From the NCBI RefSeq assembly GCF_900114655.1, contig NZ_FOTT01000020.1:1-55657 (forward strand): DNA of 55,657 bases, written 5' to 3'. Below, one piece after another: positions 20,475 to 55,657 of this stretch (positions within the stretch are counted from its first letter, which is position 1; each line of letters begins with the position of its first letter). Made by a program: the position numbers and the translations under genes. The notes beneath the pieces were generated by a model. The model saw only the letters and a list, made by a program, of their open reading frames with translations, had not been told where the DNA came from and made no database searches. The stretch is from Candidatus Frackibacter sp. WG13. Its GTDB lineage: Bacteria > Bacillota > Halanaerobiia > Halobacteroidales > Acetohalobiaceae.

Positions 20475-20567
20475 TTCTCTTGATAAAGGCACTCTTTCTG
20501 AAAAGTAAGTTCGCAAAGCTTTGAGTCTAAGGTATTATACTAAGGTTGTCAAAGCTGCCAAAGGGAA
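20475..20567 (+). ncRNA. Cyclic di-GMP-I (GEMM-I) riboswitch aptamer, divergent
   Basis: P1 is TTCTCTT (20475-20481) paired with AAGGGAA (20561-20567). Inside lie the GEMM landmarks GATAAAGGCA, a P2 hairpin with a CTGAAAAG tetraloop-like element, TCGCAAAGC, a TCTAAGG turn and the closing AAAGCTGCCAAA. These match the known class I c-di-GMP aptamer order; the P2 loop and the TTCGCAAAG junction differ from the textbook form. A terminator hairpin and a Spo0E-like gene follow, giving a standard transcription-control layout. The better copy is at 43257-43348. A GEMM-Ib specificity (cyclic GMP-AMP) is not excluded. Confidence 0.82.
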
Positions 20568-20680: not shown

Positions 20681-20839
20681 ATGTTAAAAGAAAAGGATCT
20701 AAATAAAAAAATTGAAAGGTTAAAACGAGAACTTTTAATGATTGCTAGCACAGAAAATAAAAGAACTAATGAGAATGTTATTAAAAAAAGTAAACAACTA
20801 GATAATTTAATAGTTAATTTTATGAAGTCAAAAGAATGA
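20681..20839 (+). CDS. Spo0E-like aspartyl-phosphate phosphatase
   Basis: A 52-residue two-helix protein. The first helix is amphipathic and charged (KIERLKRELLM); the second carries the family signature SKQLDNLIVNFM, where the S-x-x-L-D core corresponds to the catalytic Spo0E motif. Spo0E proteins dephosphorylate Spo0A~P and so hold back sporulation. ATG at 20681 is eight bases behind GGAG. It lies downstream of a c-di-GMP-I riboswitch and its terminator, so its synthesis should depend on c-di-GMP. Two further homologues are at 31901 and 43448. Confidence 0.83.
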   Translation: MLKEKDLNKKIERLKRELLMIASTENKRTNENVIKKSKQLDNLIVNFMKSKE

Positions 20840-20858
20840 ATTTGCTTTATAACTTTAG

Positions 20859-20955
20859 AAAAACAGAGTTAAATTATTATTTTATATTATGTGGGTCGTG
20901 GCAAGCATCACAAGTGATTATATATTTTAAAAATAATTTTTAAAGCTCTGTTTTT
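20859..20955 (+). ncRNA. Conserved structured RNA of unknown type (copy 1)
   Basis: Outer stem AAAAACAGAG (20859-20868) with CTCTGTTTTT (20946-20955), then AAATTATT (20871-20878) with AATAATTT (20932-20939). The loop contains a 27-nt block at 20886-20912 (core GGGTCGTGGCAAG then ATCACA) that recurs with one change at 43773-43799. The stems of the two copies differ in sequence but keep pairing. It lies between a Spo0E-like gene and the PP2C gene, 48 bases before the latter. I do not recognise an RNA family; it could be a riboswitch or a terminator with a conserved loop. Confidence 0.6.
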
Positions 20956-21002
20956 CTTATTTTAATTTTATAGATATTTTGTTTAGCTGAAGGGGTGAGC
21001 GA

Positions 21003-23063
21003 ATGCTAACATTTTTAAAAGATAAAACGTTTGAGGACTTAGAAGAATTTAAAGAATATATTTTTACAAAAGCAGAACAATTTCGATTGATTTTAGAAAG
21101 TATAAAAGCAGGAATAGTTGTTATAGATGAAAATGAAGAATATGTTTACTTTAACAATGAAGCTAAGAAACAAATGAGAATAGATGGTTTTATGGAAGGG
21201 AAATACTTAGAAAGCTGTCATTCTTCATCAAAATATCAAAAAGCCAAAAAAATAATTAATAGTTTTAAAAATGGAAGACGAACTAGTTTTACAAGAGAAG
21301 CCAATTTTTTTGGTAAGAAATATGCAATATATGTTAATCCCTTAATAAATGGAATAGGAGACTATTTAGGAGCAGTACGTTTGAGTGTAGATATTTCTAA
21401 AAGAAAAGAATTTGAAGAAAAATTATTAAATGCAAAACAGAAATATGAACAGTTATTTGAAAACTCAGGAGAAGCTATTTTAGTAGTTAATACAGACTCA
21501 AAAAGAATAGTAGATCTTAATCAAAGAGCCATAGAGTTATATAAATATAATTTAAAAGTAGAATTATTAGGAAAAGATGTTAGAGAATTGGTTGCTAGAG
21601 ACTTAAAAGAAGTTGATGATGATATGGGGAAAGTAATAGACAATAAAGTTTATACTTTTGCAAGTAAACACAAATGCAAAACAGGAGATATCTTAGATGT
21701 AGAATTAAATGCTCGATTAATAGATTACGATGGGGAAGAATGTTTTTTATATAATATTAGAGATATAACAGAAAAAGTTAAGATTCAAAGACAAAAATAT
21801 AAGGCACAAAGATTAAAACATAGGAACCAATTATTTAAAAAAATTAATAACCTATATAAGCAATTTACAAAAATAGAAGATAAGGTTCAGTTTAATAAAT
21901 TTTTAGAAAGAGTGTTAAATGAATTAATAAAGTTCTCTCATTCTAAAGAAGGAATTATTTTAGTAAAAGATATTTTTCAAGGAGAAGGATACTTAGTAAA
22001 GTCAACTATAAACACAGCTAATCAACATATTGTATCTTTATTTAATGATATTAAAAACAATTATACAATTGATGAAATAGATACAAGAATTTTGATTAAA
22101 AATGAAATTAATGAAAATAACATTTTAAATGAAAAACTGAGTACAAATTCTTTCCGGAGTTTGATCAGCAAATTAATAACATATGATGAAGAATTAGTCG
22201 GTGGAATAGCTTTACTCAATAAAGAAAAAGATTATATAGATGGAGATAAAGAAGTTATTAGGACATTTGTTAGTTATTTAAAAAATGGGATAGAAAAGAT
22301 AGAAAATTTACAAAGACAAATTAAGGAAGAAAAAATAAAAAAAGAAATTGATATAGCTGCACAAATCCAAGCTTCATTTTTGCCTGAGAAGAATCCACAA
22401 CGAGAAGAGTTAGAATTAGCAACTTACTCTAAAGCAGCGCAAGAAGTCGGTGGGGATTACTTTGGGTTTAATGAAAATGAGAACCAAATAGGAATATTAA
22501 TATCAGATGTAATGGGGAAGGGGATTCCATCAGCGATTATGGTTGCTACTATACATAGTGCTTTTAATATTCTAAGTAAGTTTAATCAAAAGCCTTCTGA
22601 AATATTAACTAATTTAAATAATAATTTATATAATGATTTGAAAGATTCACCAATCTTTGTTTCAGCATTTTATGGGGCTTTTAACTTTGAAACTAAAATA
22701 TTGAAATACAGCAATGCTGGACATAACCCCCCCATTGTATGGTCAGCTAAGGAACGTAAAATCCAATTGTTAAGGAACACAGGAATTTTATGTGGTATTG
22801 AACCACATTACAGTTATTCATGCAATAAAATCAAGTTGAATAAAGGAGATATCATTATTTTTTATACTGATGGTTTAACAGATGTACGTAATTGTGATAA
22901 AAAAAGATTTAAACTTGATGGTATTAAAAATTTACTTATAAAGAATAATCATTTACCAGCTCATAGATTAAAAATAAAATTAGTTAAAAAGATTAAAGAG
23001 TTTTCATTAAAACAAACACAGCCAGATGATATTAGTTTTATAATTTGTAAATTCAAAGGTTAG
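21003..23063 (+). CDS. PAS-PAS-GAF SpoIIE/RsbU-type PP2C serine phosphatase
   Basis: A 686-residue soluble sensor phosphatase. PAS 1 spans about residues 23-135 (AGIVVIDENEEYVYFNNEA), PAS 2 about 140-265, a GAF-like domain about 280-430, a coiled coil 435-460, and a PP2C-SpoIIE domain about 465-686. Metal-binding acidic motifs are present: EVGGDYFGF, DVMGKGIPSA, SNAGHNPP, YTDGLTD and QPDDISF. Such enzymes dephosphorylate a STAS anti-anti-sigma protein. A STAS gene (26376) and an RsbW-like kinase (23076) follow in the same operon, completing a partner switch. The signal sensed by PAS/GAF is unknown. The conserved RNA at 20859-20955 lies in its leader. Confidence 0.9.
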   Translation: MLTFLKDKTFEDLEEFKEYIFTKAEQFRLILESIKAGIVVIDENEEYVYFNNEAKKQMRIDGFMEGKYLESCHSSSKYQKAKKIINSFKNGRRTSFTREANFFGKKYAIYVNPLINGIGDYLGAVRLSVDISKRKEFEEKLLNAKQKYEQLFENSGEAILVVNTDSKRIVDLNQRAIELYKYNLKVELLGKDVRELVARDLKEVDDDMGKVIDNKVYTFASKHKCKTGDILDVELNARLIDYDGEECFLYNIRDITEKVKIQRQKYKAQRLKHRNQLFKKINNLYKQFTKIEDKVQFNKFLERVLNELIKFSHSKEGIILVKDIFQGEGYLVKSTINTANQHIVSLFNDIKNNYTIDEIDTRILIKNEINENNILNEKLSTNSFRSLISKLITYDEELVGGIALLNKEKDYIDGDKEVIRTFVSYLKNGIEKIENLQRQIKEEKIKKEIDIAAQIQASFLPEKNPQREELELATYSKAAQEVGGDYFGFNENENQIGILISDVMGKGIPSAIMVATIHSAFNILSKFNQKPSEILTNLNNNLYNDLKDSPIFVSAFYGAFNFETKILKYSNAGHNPPIVWSAKERKIQLLRNTGILCGIEPHYSYSCNKIKLNKGDIIIFYTDGLTDVRNCDKKRFKLDGIKNLLIKNNHLPAHRLKIKLVKKIKEFSLKQTQPDDISFIICKFKG

Positions 23064-43179: not shown

Positions 43180-43208
43180 TTTACAAGATAATGATAAATT
43201 GATATAAT
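43180..43208 (+). promoter_or_regulatory. Promoter of the second riboswitch transcript
   Basis: TTTACA (43180-43185), a 17-bp spacer, then TATAAT (43203-43208) in the context TTGATATAATTT, which is shared with the orphan RNA promoter at 42348. Confidence 0.7.
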
Positions 43209-43256: not shown

Positions 43257-43348
43257 ATTCCTCGATAAAGGCAAACTTATCGAAAGATAAGGACGCAAAG
43301 CTCGGAGCCTAAAGCTTATGCTATGGTCGTCAAGCTACCGAAAGGGAA
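43257..43348 (+). ncRNA. Cyclic di-GMP-I (GEMM-I) riboswitch aptamer
   Basis: A close match to the class I consensus: GATAAAGGCAAAC, then a P2 hairpin CTTATCGAAAGATAAGG with the GAAA tetraloop, GACGCAAAGCTC, GGAGCCTAAAGC, and GTCGTCAAGCTACCGAAAG on the 3' side. The tetraloop and its receptor, the GACGCAAAGC joint and the GCCTAAAGC turn are all present. A terminator hairpin follows at 43378 and then a Spo0E-like gene. The ligand should be cyclic di-GMP. Confidence 0.93.
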
Positions 43349-43377: not shown

Positions 43378-43424
43378 AAGTCCTATTCCTCTTTTATATT
43401 TTATTGAGGAATAGGACTTATTTA
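43378..43424 (+). terminator. Riboswitch expression-platform terminator
   Basis: AAGTCCTATTCCTC (43378-43391) and GAGGAATAGGACTT (43406-43419) form a perfect 14-bp stem. The stem core CCTATTCC resembles the terminator of the first riboswitch (CTTATTCC), as expected for a duplicated unit. Confidence 0.85.
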
Positions 43425-43447: not shown

Positions 43448-43612
43448 GTGATTACAATTAATATTCAAAGCAGAAGTGAAATTAAAAAGTTAAAGGTGGA
43501 GCTTGCTAAGATAGTTAAGGATAAAGAGAATTTGAATCATAAGAAGGTAATTAATAAAAGCCAGGAATTAGATAAGAAGATTGTTTCTTTCATGAAATGG
43601 ATAGCAAAATAA
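43448..43612 (+). CDS. Spo0E-like aspartyl-phosphate phosphatase (third copy)
   Basis: A 54-residue two-helix protein. The C-terminal helix carries INKSQELDKKIVSFM, the Spo0E core S-Q-E-L-D. The start is unclear: GTG at 43448 is the only standard start, but its ribosome site is poor, whereas AGAAAGAGTGA would suit a start a few codons further on, where only ATT or AAT occurs. It lies downstream of the better c-di-GMP-I riboswitch and terminator, so Spo0A~P dephosphorylation should respond to c-di-GMP. Confidence 0.75.
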   Translation: MITINIQSRSEIKKLKVELAKIVKDKENLNHKKVINKSQELDKKIVSFMKWIAK

Positions 43613-43742: not shown

Positions 43743-43842
43743 GGAAAAAGGTTAAGAGATTATATTAATTTTATTATGTGGGTCGTGGCAAGAATCACAG
43801 GTATATAATATAGTTAATTTATAAAATTAATCTCCTTTTTCC
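43743..43842 (+). ncRNA. Conserved structured RNA of unknown type (copy 2)
   Basis: Outer stem GGAAAAAG (43743-43750) with CTTTTTCC (43835-43842); then GAGATTA (43756-43762) with TAATCTC (43828-43834). The loop carries the same 27-nt block as copy 1 at 43773-43799, with one base changed. The stem sequences differ from copy 1 but pair, which is covariation-like evidence. It lies between a Spo0E-like gene and an HD-GYP gene, 60 bases before the latter. Confidence 0.6.
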
Positions 43843-43902: not shown

Positions 43903-44472
43903 GTGGATAACAGATTGGCTAAAGCATTTGTAGGAATTATTGAATTGAGAGATGAATATACTTCTACCCATAGTAAGAATGTTGCTAAATATTCATTACA
44001 ATTAGGTAAAGGACTTCAATTAGATAAAACGACTTTAAATAATCTAAGGTTTGCTGCTTTATTACATGATATTGGGAAAATTGCTGTTCCAGATGCTATA
44101 TTACATAAAACAACTACTTTAACAGAGGACGAATTTATAGAAGTAAAACGTCATTCAATAGTTGGTGCTAGAGCTGTAAAACAAGCAAATTTTAATGATG
44201 CAATAATACTAGGTATTCGTTATCACCATGAGTTTTTTAATGGCAATGGTTATCCTGAGGGATTAAAAGGTGAAGGGATTCCTTTAATTTCTAGGATAAT
44301 TGCTGTGGCAGATGCCTTTGATGCTATGACCTCAAAAAGACCTTATCGAGAAGCGTTTTCTCATAAGAAAGCAATTAAAGAATTAGAGAACTGTGCAGGA
44401 AGTCAGTTTGATCCAAAGATTGTTGATGTTTTTGTTGAATTGTTTGTAGACAGTCAGATGAGTTTGAATTAG
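43903..44472 (+). CDS. Stand-alone HD-GYP domain phosphodiesterase (paralogue)
   Basis: A 189-residue HD-GYP domain protein, nearly identical to that at 26949 over its first 36 residues and similar throughout. LLHDIGKIAVPDAIL carries the HD metal ligands. The signature is RYHHEFFNGNGYPEGL: one His of the RHHHE run is Tyr here, and GYPDG is GYPEG, so activity could differ. The start is GTG at 43903 behind GAGGAGGGACTT. It completes the duplicated cassette of riboswitch, Spo0E-like gene, conserved RNA and HD-GYP gene. Confidence 0.88.
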   Translation: MDNRLAKAFVGIIELRDEYTSTHSKNVAKYSLQLGKGLQLDKTTLNNLRFAALLHDIGKIAVPDAILHKTTTLTEDEFIEVKRHSIVGARAVKQANFNDAIILGIRYHHEFFNGNGYPEGLKGEGIPLISRIIAVADAFDAMTSKRPYREAFSHKKAIKELENCAGSQFDPKIVDVFVELFVDSQMSLN

Positions 44473-44566: not shown

Positions 44567-45079
44567 TTAGGAACTCTGCTGGTTGAGATATTTTTCTACT
44601 TCGTCTTCTTCCATTGGATTTAATGTTACATAGTCAGGAAGTGACCAGTCTCTAATTTCCCCTGACCATCTCTCTGGATGAGTTTCCTTAGCCTTTTTAT
44701 ATGTTGCAATACGCTTTTGTATTATATCTATATCAAGCCCGTAATGTCTTTGATAGGGCGTTATAAAATTAATTCCACTATGTAAATGTTCATGATTGTA
44801 CCAGTGAACAAACTTAGAAACCCATTCTCTGGCTTCTGTCAGGTTCTTAAAGCCTTTGTTAGGATAAACAGGTCTATACTTCATTGTTTTAAATAGTGAT
44901 TCAGAATAGGGATTATCGTTACTTACTCTTGGTCTTGAAAATGAACTTTGAACTCCTAGTTTTTCGAGTGTTGCCATAAATGTTGCTGCTTTCATAGGGC
45001 TACCATTATCAGAATGTAATACTAATGGTTTATCTTTTTTAGTTGCTATACCTTGGGAAAGAGTAGCTTTTTTAATCAA
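44567..45079 (-). pseudogene. IS3 transposase OrfB, C-terminal part
   Basis: 170 residues of the DDE integrase-core domain: LVLHSDNGSPMKAATFM (second catalytic Asp), PRVSNDNPYSESLFKTMKYR (catalytic Glu), FVHWYNHEHLHSGI near the end. The first catalytic Asp and the N-terminal third of OrfB are absent, so the enzyme cannot be active. It starts four bases before orfA ends, where a long stretch has been deleted. Confidence 0.85.
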
Positions 45080-45345
45080 CCTCTTTCTCGGCAGTATTTA
45101 GAAGTTTCCAATTCAGAAAGACTGGCAGTTTCTAAGACAGCTTGAAACTTATCTTTAGAAGTCCATTTGCTCGCTCTTTTACTAGTAGCAGGACTTTCTT
45201 TAAGAGCTTTACTTCGCCAAGAATAAAGAGTATTTCTAGGTATGTCTAATTCTTTTGCTAAATCAGGTACTTTTTCAGCATTTGGTGGAGCAAGTCTTTT
45301 AAAAACAGATTCTTTTAATTCTTTGGGATAAACTTTTTTTGGCAT
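45076..45345 (-). CDS. IS3 transposase OrfA-like protein
   Basis: An 89-residue protein with a helix-turn-helix, KVPDLAKELDIPRNTLYSWR, preceded by YPKELKESVFKRL, as in IS3-type OrfA. It binds the inverted repeats and normally joins OrfB by a programmed frameshift. Its C-terminus SELETSKYCRERG looks cut short by the deletion that also removed the start of OrfB. AAGGAGAATTAAT precedes the ATG on the minus strand. Confidence 0.75.
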   Translation of the reverse strand: MPKKVYPKELKESVFKRLAPPNAEKVPDLAKELDIPRNTLYSWRSKALKESPATSKRASKWTSKDKFQAVLETASLSELETSKYCRERG

Positions 45346-45483
45346 ATTAATTCTCCTTAGGATTTATTGTCGTTACTTTATTATACACAAATTTTACTCC
45401 TTACGACAACTATCCTAACACATAGGGCTATTAAATCAATTGTTAAATGAATGTAAATATATTTGTTTTGACTTGAAAAGAGT

Positions 45484-53887: not shown

Positions 53888-55657
53888 TACGCCAAGCAAG
53901 TTTGATATTTCTGGCAAGGTGAAGCCGTCTACTAGAGTAGACTTAGGATAATATCGATTATGAGAGATTACAACAGAACCAACGTAAATAGCTCAATGGT
54001 AAGAGCTTAAAAGATCGCCGACAGAAGGTCCACCTTTCACTACCTCACTGTCTTTGGTAAAGTGAAGGTCGTTCAATGGTTTGAGTAATATTTTAATTAG
54101 TCAATATATCTGATAACAGTCTTTGCTAGGTAAGGACTAACCATCCACCTATATCGAGTGTTGCGCTTTGAATTGGTAACAATTCAGGTGAAGTGTACAC
54201 AGAGAACTTTTTAGGCCAGAGGGAAGACCGTAATTCCTGAAGCATATTGAGCCCCGTTAGTATCGGGTCCTGGAAACAGGAGAAGAGCAGATGACGACGT
54301 AGTTAACGTTGCGGAAGTCAATACGAAGGAATTGTAAAAGGTGAGATTCCGGAGGGTCTGTCGGGGTCAGAGAACCTGGCATGAAGAGAAAGAAATATCA
54401 GGAATTTGGGAGGTCCTACAGGTTCCAATGATTATTGGAAGGTCTATCCAATCGAAAAAGAGGACGACCTGCGACTTGTAGGAAGTCGGATTAACTCATA
54501 GTACTCTGAGACCAGGAGAGCTGGTTACATGGGGAAGGGGTGACAGAAATATGTACTCATCAAAGGAAACACTAACCGGACGCGCAAGGCCGGAGCAATT
54601 AGTGCAAACCTCACTGAAGGGAATAGCAAAGAAAGCAAAACGACTCAAAAAGTATAGATTTCGTGACCTATATAGGCAGATAAACCATAGTGCTTTAAGT
54701 AAAGCTTGGGATAACATAAATAAGAAAGCAGCCGCAGGAGTAGATAAAATAACTGCCAAAGAATTTGCTAAAAACTTAAAAGATAATATTGAAAGTATAT
54801 TAGATAGCTTAATAGGTAAGCGATATCATGCAAAGATGGTACGTAGAGTGAATATAGAAAAGGACAATGGGAAACTTCGTCCACTGGGGATTCCAGTAGT
54901 TGCCGATAAAATAGTACAAAGAGCAACAGCCGATATATTAGAAGCAATTTATGAACAAGATTTTATAGATAATAGCTATGGATATAGACCAAACCGTGAT
55001 TCAAAAGTAGCAATAAAATCTTTAACAAAAGAATTACAGTTTGGCAAATACAGTTACATAGTTGAAGCAGATATCAAAGGATTTTTCGATAACATAGACC
55101 ATGATTGGTTAATAGAAATGTTAAAACAAAGAGTTAATGATAAAGAATTTATAAGGCTAATCAAGAAATGGTTAAAAGCTGGGATATTAAAAGAAGATGG
55201 ACAAGTCATTCATCCAGTTACAGGAACTCCTCAAGGTGGCATAATAAGTCCCATTCTAGCAAATATCTATCTACACTACGTATTAGATATCTGGTTTATA
55301 GGAAAAGTTAAGAAAGAATGTGCAGGTGAAGCCCATCTATGTCGTTACGCTGATGACTTTGTTTGTGCTTTTAGGTACAAAAGAGATGCAGAACGATTTT
55401 ATCACATGTTACAAAAGAGACTAAATAAATTTGGTCTAGCACTTTCATTGGAAAAGACAAATATAATCAGTTTCTCTAGATTCCGTAAATATGAAAATAA
55501 TAGCTTTGAATTTCTAGGGTTCGAGATGCGTTGGGGAACTTCAAGGAAAGGTAAGGACATAATTAAAAGGAGAACTTCACGCAAGAAACTAAGAAAATCA
55601 CTTAAGAATTTTACTAAGTGGTGCAAAGAAAATAGGAATAAGCGACTCAGAAGTTTG
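53888..55657 (+). mobile_element. Group II intron (3' end beyond the window)
   Basis: The RNA part runs from a GTACGCC-type 5' end near 53888 through about 660 bases rich in GAAA-like and GC hairpins (for example GGGGAAGGGGTGACAG just before the maturase start). The intron-encoded reverse transcriptase begins at 54551. Domain 5 and 6 and the 3' boundary are outside. The 5' boundary is estimated from the GUxCG-like consensus only. Confidence 0.85.
54551..55657 (+). CDS. ltrA: Group II intron reverse transcriptase/maturase, N-terminal 369 codons
   Basis: The frame is open from the ATG at 54551 to the window end, so the protein is partial. Reverse-transcriptase blocks: DNGKLRPLGIPVVADKIVQR (RT2), YGYRPNRDSKVAIKSL, YIVEADIKGFFDNIDHDWLI (RT3), GTPQGGIISPILANIYLHYV (RT4) and HLCRYADDFVCAF (RT5, with the catalytic YADD). 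It splices its host intron and copies it into DNA targets. Start of the maturase X domain is visible (RRTSRKKLRKSLKNF). The endonuclease part, if any, is not in the window. Confidence 0.94.
   Translation, partial: MYSSKETLTGRARPEQLVQTSLKGIAKKAKRLKKYRFRDLYRQINHSALSKAWDNINKKAAAGVDKITAKEFAKNLKDNIESILDSLIGKRYHAKMVRRVNIEKDNGKLRPLGIPVVADKIVQRATADILEAIYEQDFIDNSYGYRPNRDSKVAIKSLTKELQFGKYSYIVEADIKGFFDNIDHDWLIEMLKQRVNDKEFIRLIKKWLKAGILKEDGQVIHPVTGTPQGGIISPILANIYLHYVLDIWFIGKVKKECAGEAHLCRYADDFVCAFRYKRDAERFYHMLQKRLNKFGLALSLEKTNIISFSRFRKYENNSFEFLGFEMRWGTSRKGKDIIKRRTSRKKLRKSLKNFTKWCKENRNKRLRSL

Follow-up and report, generated by a model that had tools for sequence, protein, structure and literature searches.

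The repeated element that precedes the HD-GYP gene in Candidatus Frackibacter sp. WG13 is best explained as one of four sibling antisense RNA segments, which lie in the 3' regions of unrelated mRNAs and would pair in trans with the message of a multiheme cytochrome, an explanation that we consider, from the sequence, just about probable. According to pattern searches, the genome holds four non-coding copies of the element, two of them in the window (the whole stretch of 55,657 nucleotides that was analysed), one on contig C8 and one on contig C24, and no further non-coding copies were found in the genome by these searches. The copies are as follows:

20889..20914, + strand, antisense core of copy 1
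20857..20957, + strand, hairpin with 12-bp perfect arms around the copy 1 core
43776..43801, + strand, antisense core of copy 2 (26 nt), reverse complement of CDSCHDPH heme-motif codons
43743..43842, + strand, hairpin bearing the copy 2 core, with a T-rich tract after its 3' arm
C8:106087-106112, - strand, C8 copy, between the genes of a 135-aa protein and a PKD-domain lipoprotein
C24:1457-1482, - strand, C24 copy, between the genes of an MCP-hemerythrin and a 4Fe-4S protein

The core AUGUGGGUCGUGGCAAGAAUCACAGG (26 nt), which reads ATGTGGGTCGTGGCAAGAATCACAGG in copy 2 (43776-43801), is the reverse complement of the codons of a c-type heme motif, (T)CxSCHDPHN, a relation that was overlooked in the initial annotation. 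The opposite strand of the core, TGT GAT TCT TGC CAC GAC CCA CAT, spells CDSCHDPH, a motif of the doubled-CxxCH type. There are 2 mismatches between the cores of copies 1 and 2, where no match would be expected by chance. When the whole genome was searched with a strict pattern, the only match besides the copies was C11:38528-38553, which is the CGSCHDPHN site of a 204-aa multiheme cytochrome (Paired_CXXCH_1; gene C11:38008-38619). A relaxed pattern found a single outside match in genome_contigs (one genome per species, 84,980 species), and this match, from Chromatiales, reads CGTCHDPHN and is a heme site as well. To judge from these matches, the conserved block is antisense heme-motif sequence, and the element, rather than a new sensor RNA, is probably a near-perfect antisense of the heme-site code of a multiheme cytochrome.

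The gene of the 204-aa cytochrome is the best partner common to all four copies, each of which shows specific complementarity to this mRNA encoded elsewhere. The cores of copy 2 and the C24 copy pair with it at 26/26 positions and those of copy 1 and the C8 copy at 25/26, and pairing lengths counted by hand from the alignment output reach 32 contiguous bases including G.U in copy 2, 35 with one mismatch in copy 1, 41/42 in the C8 copy and ~29 in the C24 copy. The core duplex energies are -44.6 kcal/mol for copy 2 and the C24 copy, -40.4 for copy 1 and -39.2 for the C8 copy, compared with -34.2 kcal/mol at the next-best cytochrome site, -31.9 at the best site in G004 (a relative that has such cytochromes and no element) and, with the copy 2 core as query, a best value of -25.7 kcal/mol among 9,576 background windows, which were sampled from six 20-kb stretches. 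With short flanks included, shuffled cores never went past -33.3, whereas the observed values range from -47.8 to -52.3, and the cytochrome was also the top partner of the C8 copy among the regions scanned, its own complement aside. Where the copies depart from the reverse complement of the cytochrome site, differences that are compatible with pairing through G.U occur at core columns 10, 13, 20, 23 and 25 and at six columns just outside, and pairing-breaking differences occur at columns 17 (C8) and 18 (copy 1); this bias, which involves few columns and edges outside the core picked by eye, fits RNA pairing. A point against the antisense explanation is that the pairing site lies ~70 nt before the cytochrome stop codon, far from the ribosome-binding site.

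All four copies are intercistronic: each comes after the stop codon of a gene on its own strand and is in turn followed by a gene read in the same direction, and all are oriented so that read-through transcription would yield the antisense strand. If transcribed and processed, the core would pair with the cytochrome coding sequence at the CGSCHDPHN codons and form an RNA duplex of ~29-42 bp, which would likely lead to RNase III cleavage or translation arrest and, subsequently, to lower cytochrome expression. As the targeted codons specify a conserved protein motif, the core may also pair, more weakly, with a few other CxxCHDPH sites. Hfq is present in the genome, in keeping with this reading.

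The target gene belongs to a cluster that encodes multiheme cytochromes, NHL-repeat proteins and a 550-aa protein without a Pfam match, which we read as barrel-like. In our reading, some cluster proteins look like cytochrome c biogenesis factors, and the layout of the cluster is reminiscent of envelope-spanning electron conduits. Paired_CXXCH cytochromes are present in 2/13 genomes of the order, and the element only in this one; it is absent from the 12 other genomes of the order and so shows no cross-species conservation, which counts against the antisense explanation, and no real match was found in the other 58 genomes of the class that were searched. The exact core pattern was found neither in genome_contigs nor in the viral collections, and blastn against plasmids returned only weak matches (E 0.08) outside the core. 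Literature searches for an sRNA directed against cytochrome or CxxCH codons gave nothing relevant. A wider RNA family suggested by matches to ATATGGGTCGTGGAAC... in G030, G040 and G043 was rejected, as this sequence is part of a protein-coding gene that belongs to a recurrent pair of genes, which was read fully in L090 and L092 and to which the other loci align. This pair, whose products measure 257-258 and 273 aa in L090 and L092, and which has HTH-like repeats and occurs in genomes of the same class at L090, L095, L097 and L098 (G030), L091 (G040) and L092 (G043), is probably a mobile element.

Copies 1 and 2 belong to paralogous cassettes of the same order, namely aptamer, terminator-like hairpin, spo0E-like gene, element and signalling gene, with the following components:

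43180..43208, + strand, promoter-like site TTTACA-17-TATAAT with TG, upstream of the riboswitch (consensus match only)
43260..43342, + strand, c-di-GMP-I riboswitch aptamer (RF01051, 77 bits)
43378..43419, + strand, riboswitch hairpin resembling a terminator (identified by eye)
43448..43612, + strand, spo0E-like gene (SpoOE-like, 6.7e-11)
43903..44472, + strand, HD-GYP phosphodiesterase gene downstream of copy 2 (Pfam HD_5)
20478..20562, + strand, c-di-GMP-I aptamer of the paralogous cassette (RF01051, 59.1 bits)
20681..20839, + strand, spo0E-like gene of the paralogous cassette
21003..23063, + strand, PAS-SpoIIE phosphatase gene downstream of copy 1

The initial annotation had described copy 2 as a second, repeated RNA element in a cassette with a c-di-GMP riboswitch, followed 60 bases on by an HD-GYP gene, and both descriptions hold, with the RF01051 match and the gene start at 43903. 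Transcription of copies 1 and 2 would begin at the c-di-GMP-I riboswitch, and since both copies lie downstream of this riboswitch and a spo0E-like gene, the cyclic-dinucleotide level may gate the amount of antisense RNA from these two copies, together with that of the Spo0E-like protein. Neither a c-di-GMP-I riboswitch near the C8 and C24 copies nor a spo0E-like gene adjoining them was found in the sequence read.

A third spo0E-like gene (63 aa) occurs in the locus G000:C18:283847-284519 (L119, L122) with two c-di-GMP-I riboswitches ~590 bases apart, which makes the riboswitch and spo0E-like gene a recurring cassette, and G004 seems to hold such a cassette too (L118). A c-di-GMP-I riboswitch of G004 (G004:C16:26313-26396, L121) is located upstream of an HD-GYP gene, with the gene of an XRE-type regulator on the opposite strand between them, and the antisense element is absent from this locus. 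As well, a c-di-GMP-I riboswitch on the - strand at G000:C17:12207-12290 (L117) is positioned just past the 3' end of a + strand cytochrome gene (L117:899-1405), so that transcripts reading through it would run antisense to the cytochrome gene. In the window, a transposase remnant with an rve integrase core (170 aa), apparently broken, lies beside the HD-GYP gene on the - strand at 44567-45350, and a Group II intron D1-D4-6 match (126.8 bits) was detected at 54116-54376.

The hairpin and the shared block of copy 2 are real, and their sequence is as first described. The base of the hairpin is formed by GGAAAAAGG (43743-43751) and CCTTTTTCC (43834-43842), and the proposed inner stem by GAGATTA (43756-43762) and TAATCTC (43828-43834); both proposed stems are present as sequence, but both use C43834 and cannot both form fully. 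Folding with RNAfold gave a single long hairpin for copy 2 (-27.0 kcal/mol, z -3.4), which was equalled by 0/200 shuffles. The core is predicted to be in part paired inside the hairpin, another point against the antisense explanation. When only the flanks were shuffled, the z values were -3.2 for copy 1, -2.0 for copy 2, -0.6 for C8 and -0.5 for C24. Perfect arms reach at most 12 bp in copy 1 and 11 bp in both copy 2 and C8, and arms that long appeared in 5/1000, 12/1000 and 0/1000 shuffles, respectively, yet the total folding energy of C8 is ordinary. In C24, the shuffle test showed no perfect arms beyond chance, and its hairpin is not significant, which likewise counts against the antisense explanation. 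The arm sequences differ among the copies, although long perfect stems are kept in three of the four; since the arms have no common sequence between copies, a mobile repeat bounded by terminal inverted repeats was rejected. No core fold common to all four copies was found, and the outer arms form in three. A canonical terminator scan, whose loop limit of 8 leaves out hairpins as long as these, detected no terminator.

These features bear on the view, taken in the initial annotation, that the element is a second aptamer or another ligand-binding structured RNA of an unassigned class. A repeated conserved block within a hairpin beside signalling genes, twice accompanied by a c-di-GMP-I riboswitch, might well suggest such an RNA; however, we consider it very unlikely, because the core is accounted for by its complementarity to the heme-motif codons of a specific partner gene instead of by a conserved fold, the C24 copy lacks a significant hairpin, C8 and C24 lack the adjoining riboswitch and spo0E-like gene in the sequence read, and the element is absent from the other class genomes searched. 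Moreover, Rfam at gathering and relaxed thresholds gave no family for the element, with chance-level matches beside the known aptamer. It is harder still to credit that the reverse strand encodes a small heme peptide, even though three of the copies spell CxxCHDPHN or CxxCHDPHK in the reverse frame, since no ATG, GTG or TTG precedes the motif in any copy, the frames are limited to 20-28 codons, and C8 reads YGFCH, in which the first heme-binding Cys is lost.

The four segments might also be functionless relics, left by the insertion of short cytochrome-gene copies, in inverted orientation, between other genes, which would agree with their shortness and their occurrence in one genome only. We regard this as unlikely, because the cores of copies 1 and 2 are 92% identical, above the identity of the riboswitches (~75%), the adjacent 40-base flanks (~67%, gaps excluded) and the spo0E-like genes (~64%), and because all four segments are oriented alike relative to the adjoining genes and lie within arms whose sequences are unrelated, with differences that are mostly pairing-compatible. 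The main functional rival reverses the direction of control: the regulator would be the mRNA of the cytochrome, or else an RNA derived from the 3' end of this mRNA, and the four intergenic hairpins would be its targets. Opened by the pairing, the hairpins would alter the genes that follow them (HD-GYP, SpoIIE-phosphatase, iron-sulfur protein and lipoprotein) in read-through or stability. The star topology of one cytochrome site facing four scattered intergenic sites, the position of each element upstream of a co-directional gene, the terminator-like character and T-rich tails of three elements and the proximity of the cytochrome site to the 3' end of its own mRNA all speak for this reversal. 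On the other hand, a distinct terminator-like hairpin follows the element in C24, the downstream genes have no obvious common theme, and a complementarity of 29-42 nt exceeds that of target sites, which is usually shorter; regulation in this direction is likewise unlikely in our estimation.

The antisense interpretation has partial precedents. Trans-acting 3'UTR-derived sRNAs are known in bacteria, as reviewed previously (PMC9438474, PMC7821165). Similar to them, the element lies in the stretch from a stop codon to a terminator-like hairpin and is predicted to base-pair with another mRNA; unlike them, it is one of four siblings, in unrelated 3' regions, with a common core of at least 26 nt antisense to protein-motif codons within a coding sequence, whereas the 3'UTR-derived sRNAs known so far mostly use short seeds. 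In Listeria, as described in one of these reviews, the hly 3'UTR pairs in trans with the prsA2 5'UTR, an mRNA-mRNA interaction that protects from RNase J1 (PMC7821165). A 3' region would likewise pair with another mRNA here, but at a site within the coding sequence instead of the 5'UTR. The terminated riboswitch RNA SreA of Listeria reportedly pairs itself in trans with prfA; a riboswitch-controlled transcript with predicted pairing in trans is shared with that case, whereas the antisense segment here lies past the gene that follows the riboswitch, and a riboswitch accompanies only two of the four copies. In Geobacter, cGAMP-responsive GEMM-Ib riboswitches are located upstream of cytochrome genes (PMC6456294). 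Cyclic-dinucleotide riboswitches would be tied to multiheme cytochromes in both cases, but the link here would be a trans antisense RNA and not a riboswitch upstream of the cytochrome gene itself.

In a wider sense, it is possible, though we propose it only tentatively, that sibling antisense RNAs, some of them gated by c-di-GMP, recognise CxxCHDPHN codons and control multiheme cytochromes, and thereby tie cyclic-dinucleotide and sporulation signalling to respiration. In genome annotation, calls of conserved structured RNA should be tested for antisense matches within the coding sequences of the same genome. If true, the proposal would mean that regulatory RNAs can target the code of a conserved protein motif instead of a ribosome-binding site, and that c-di-GMP sensing may be joined to multiheme cytochromes by RNA-RNA pairing, not by a riboswitch on the cytochrome gene.
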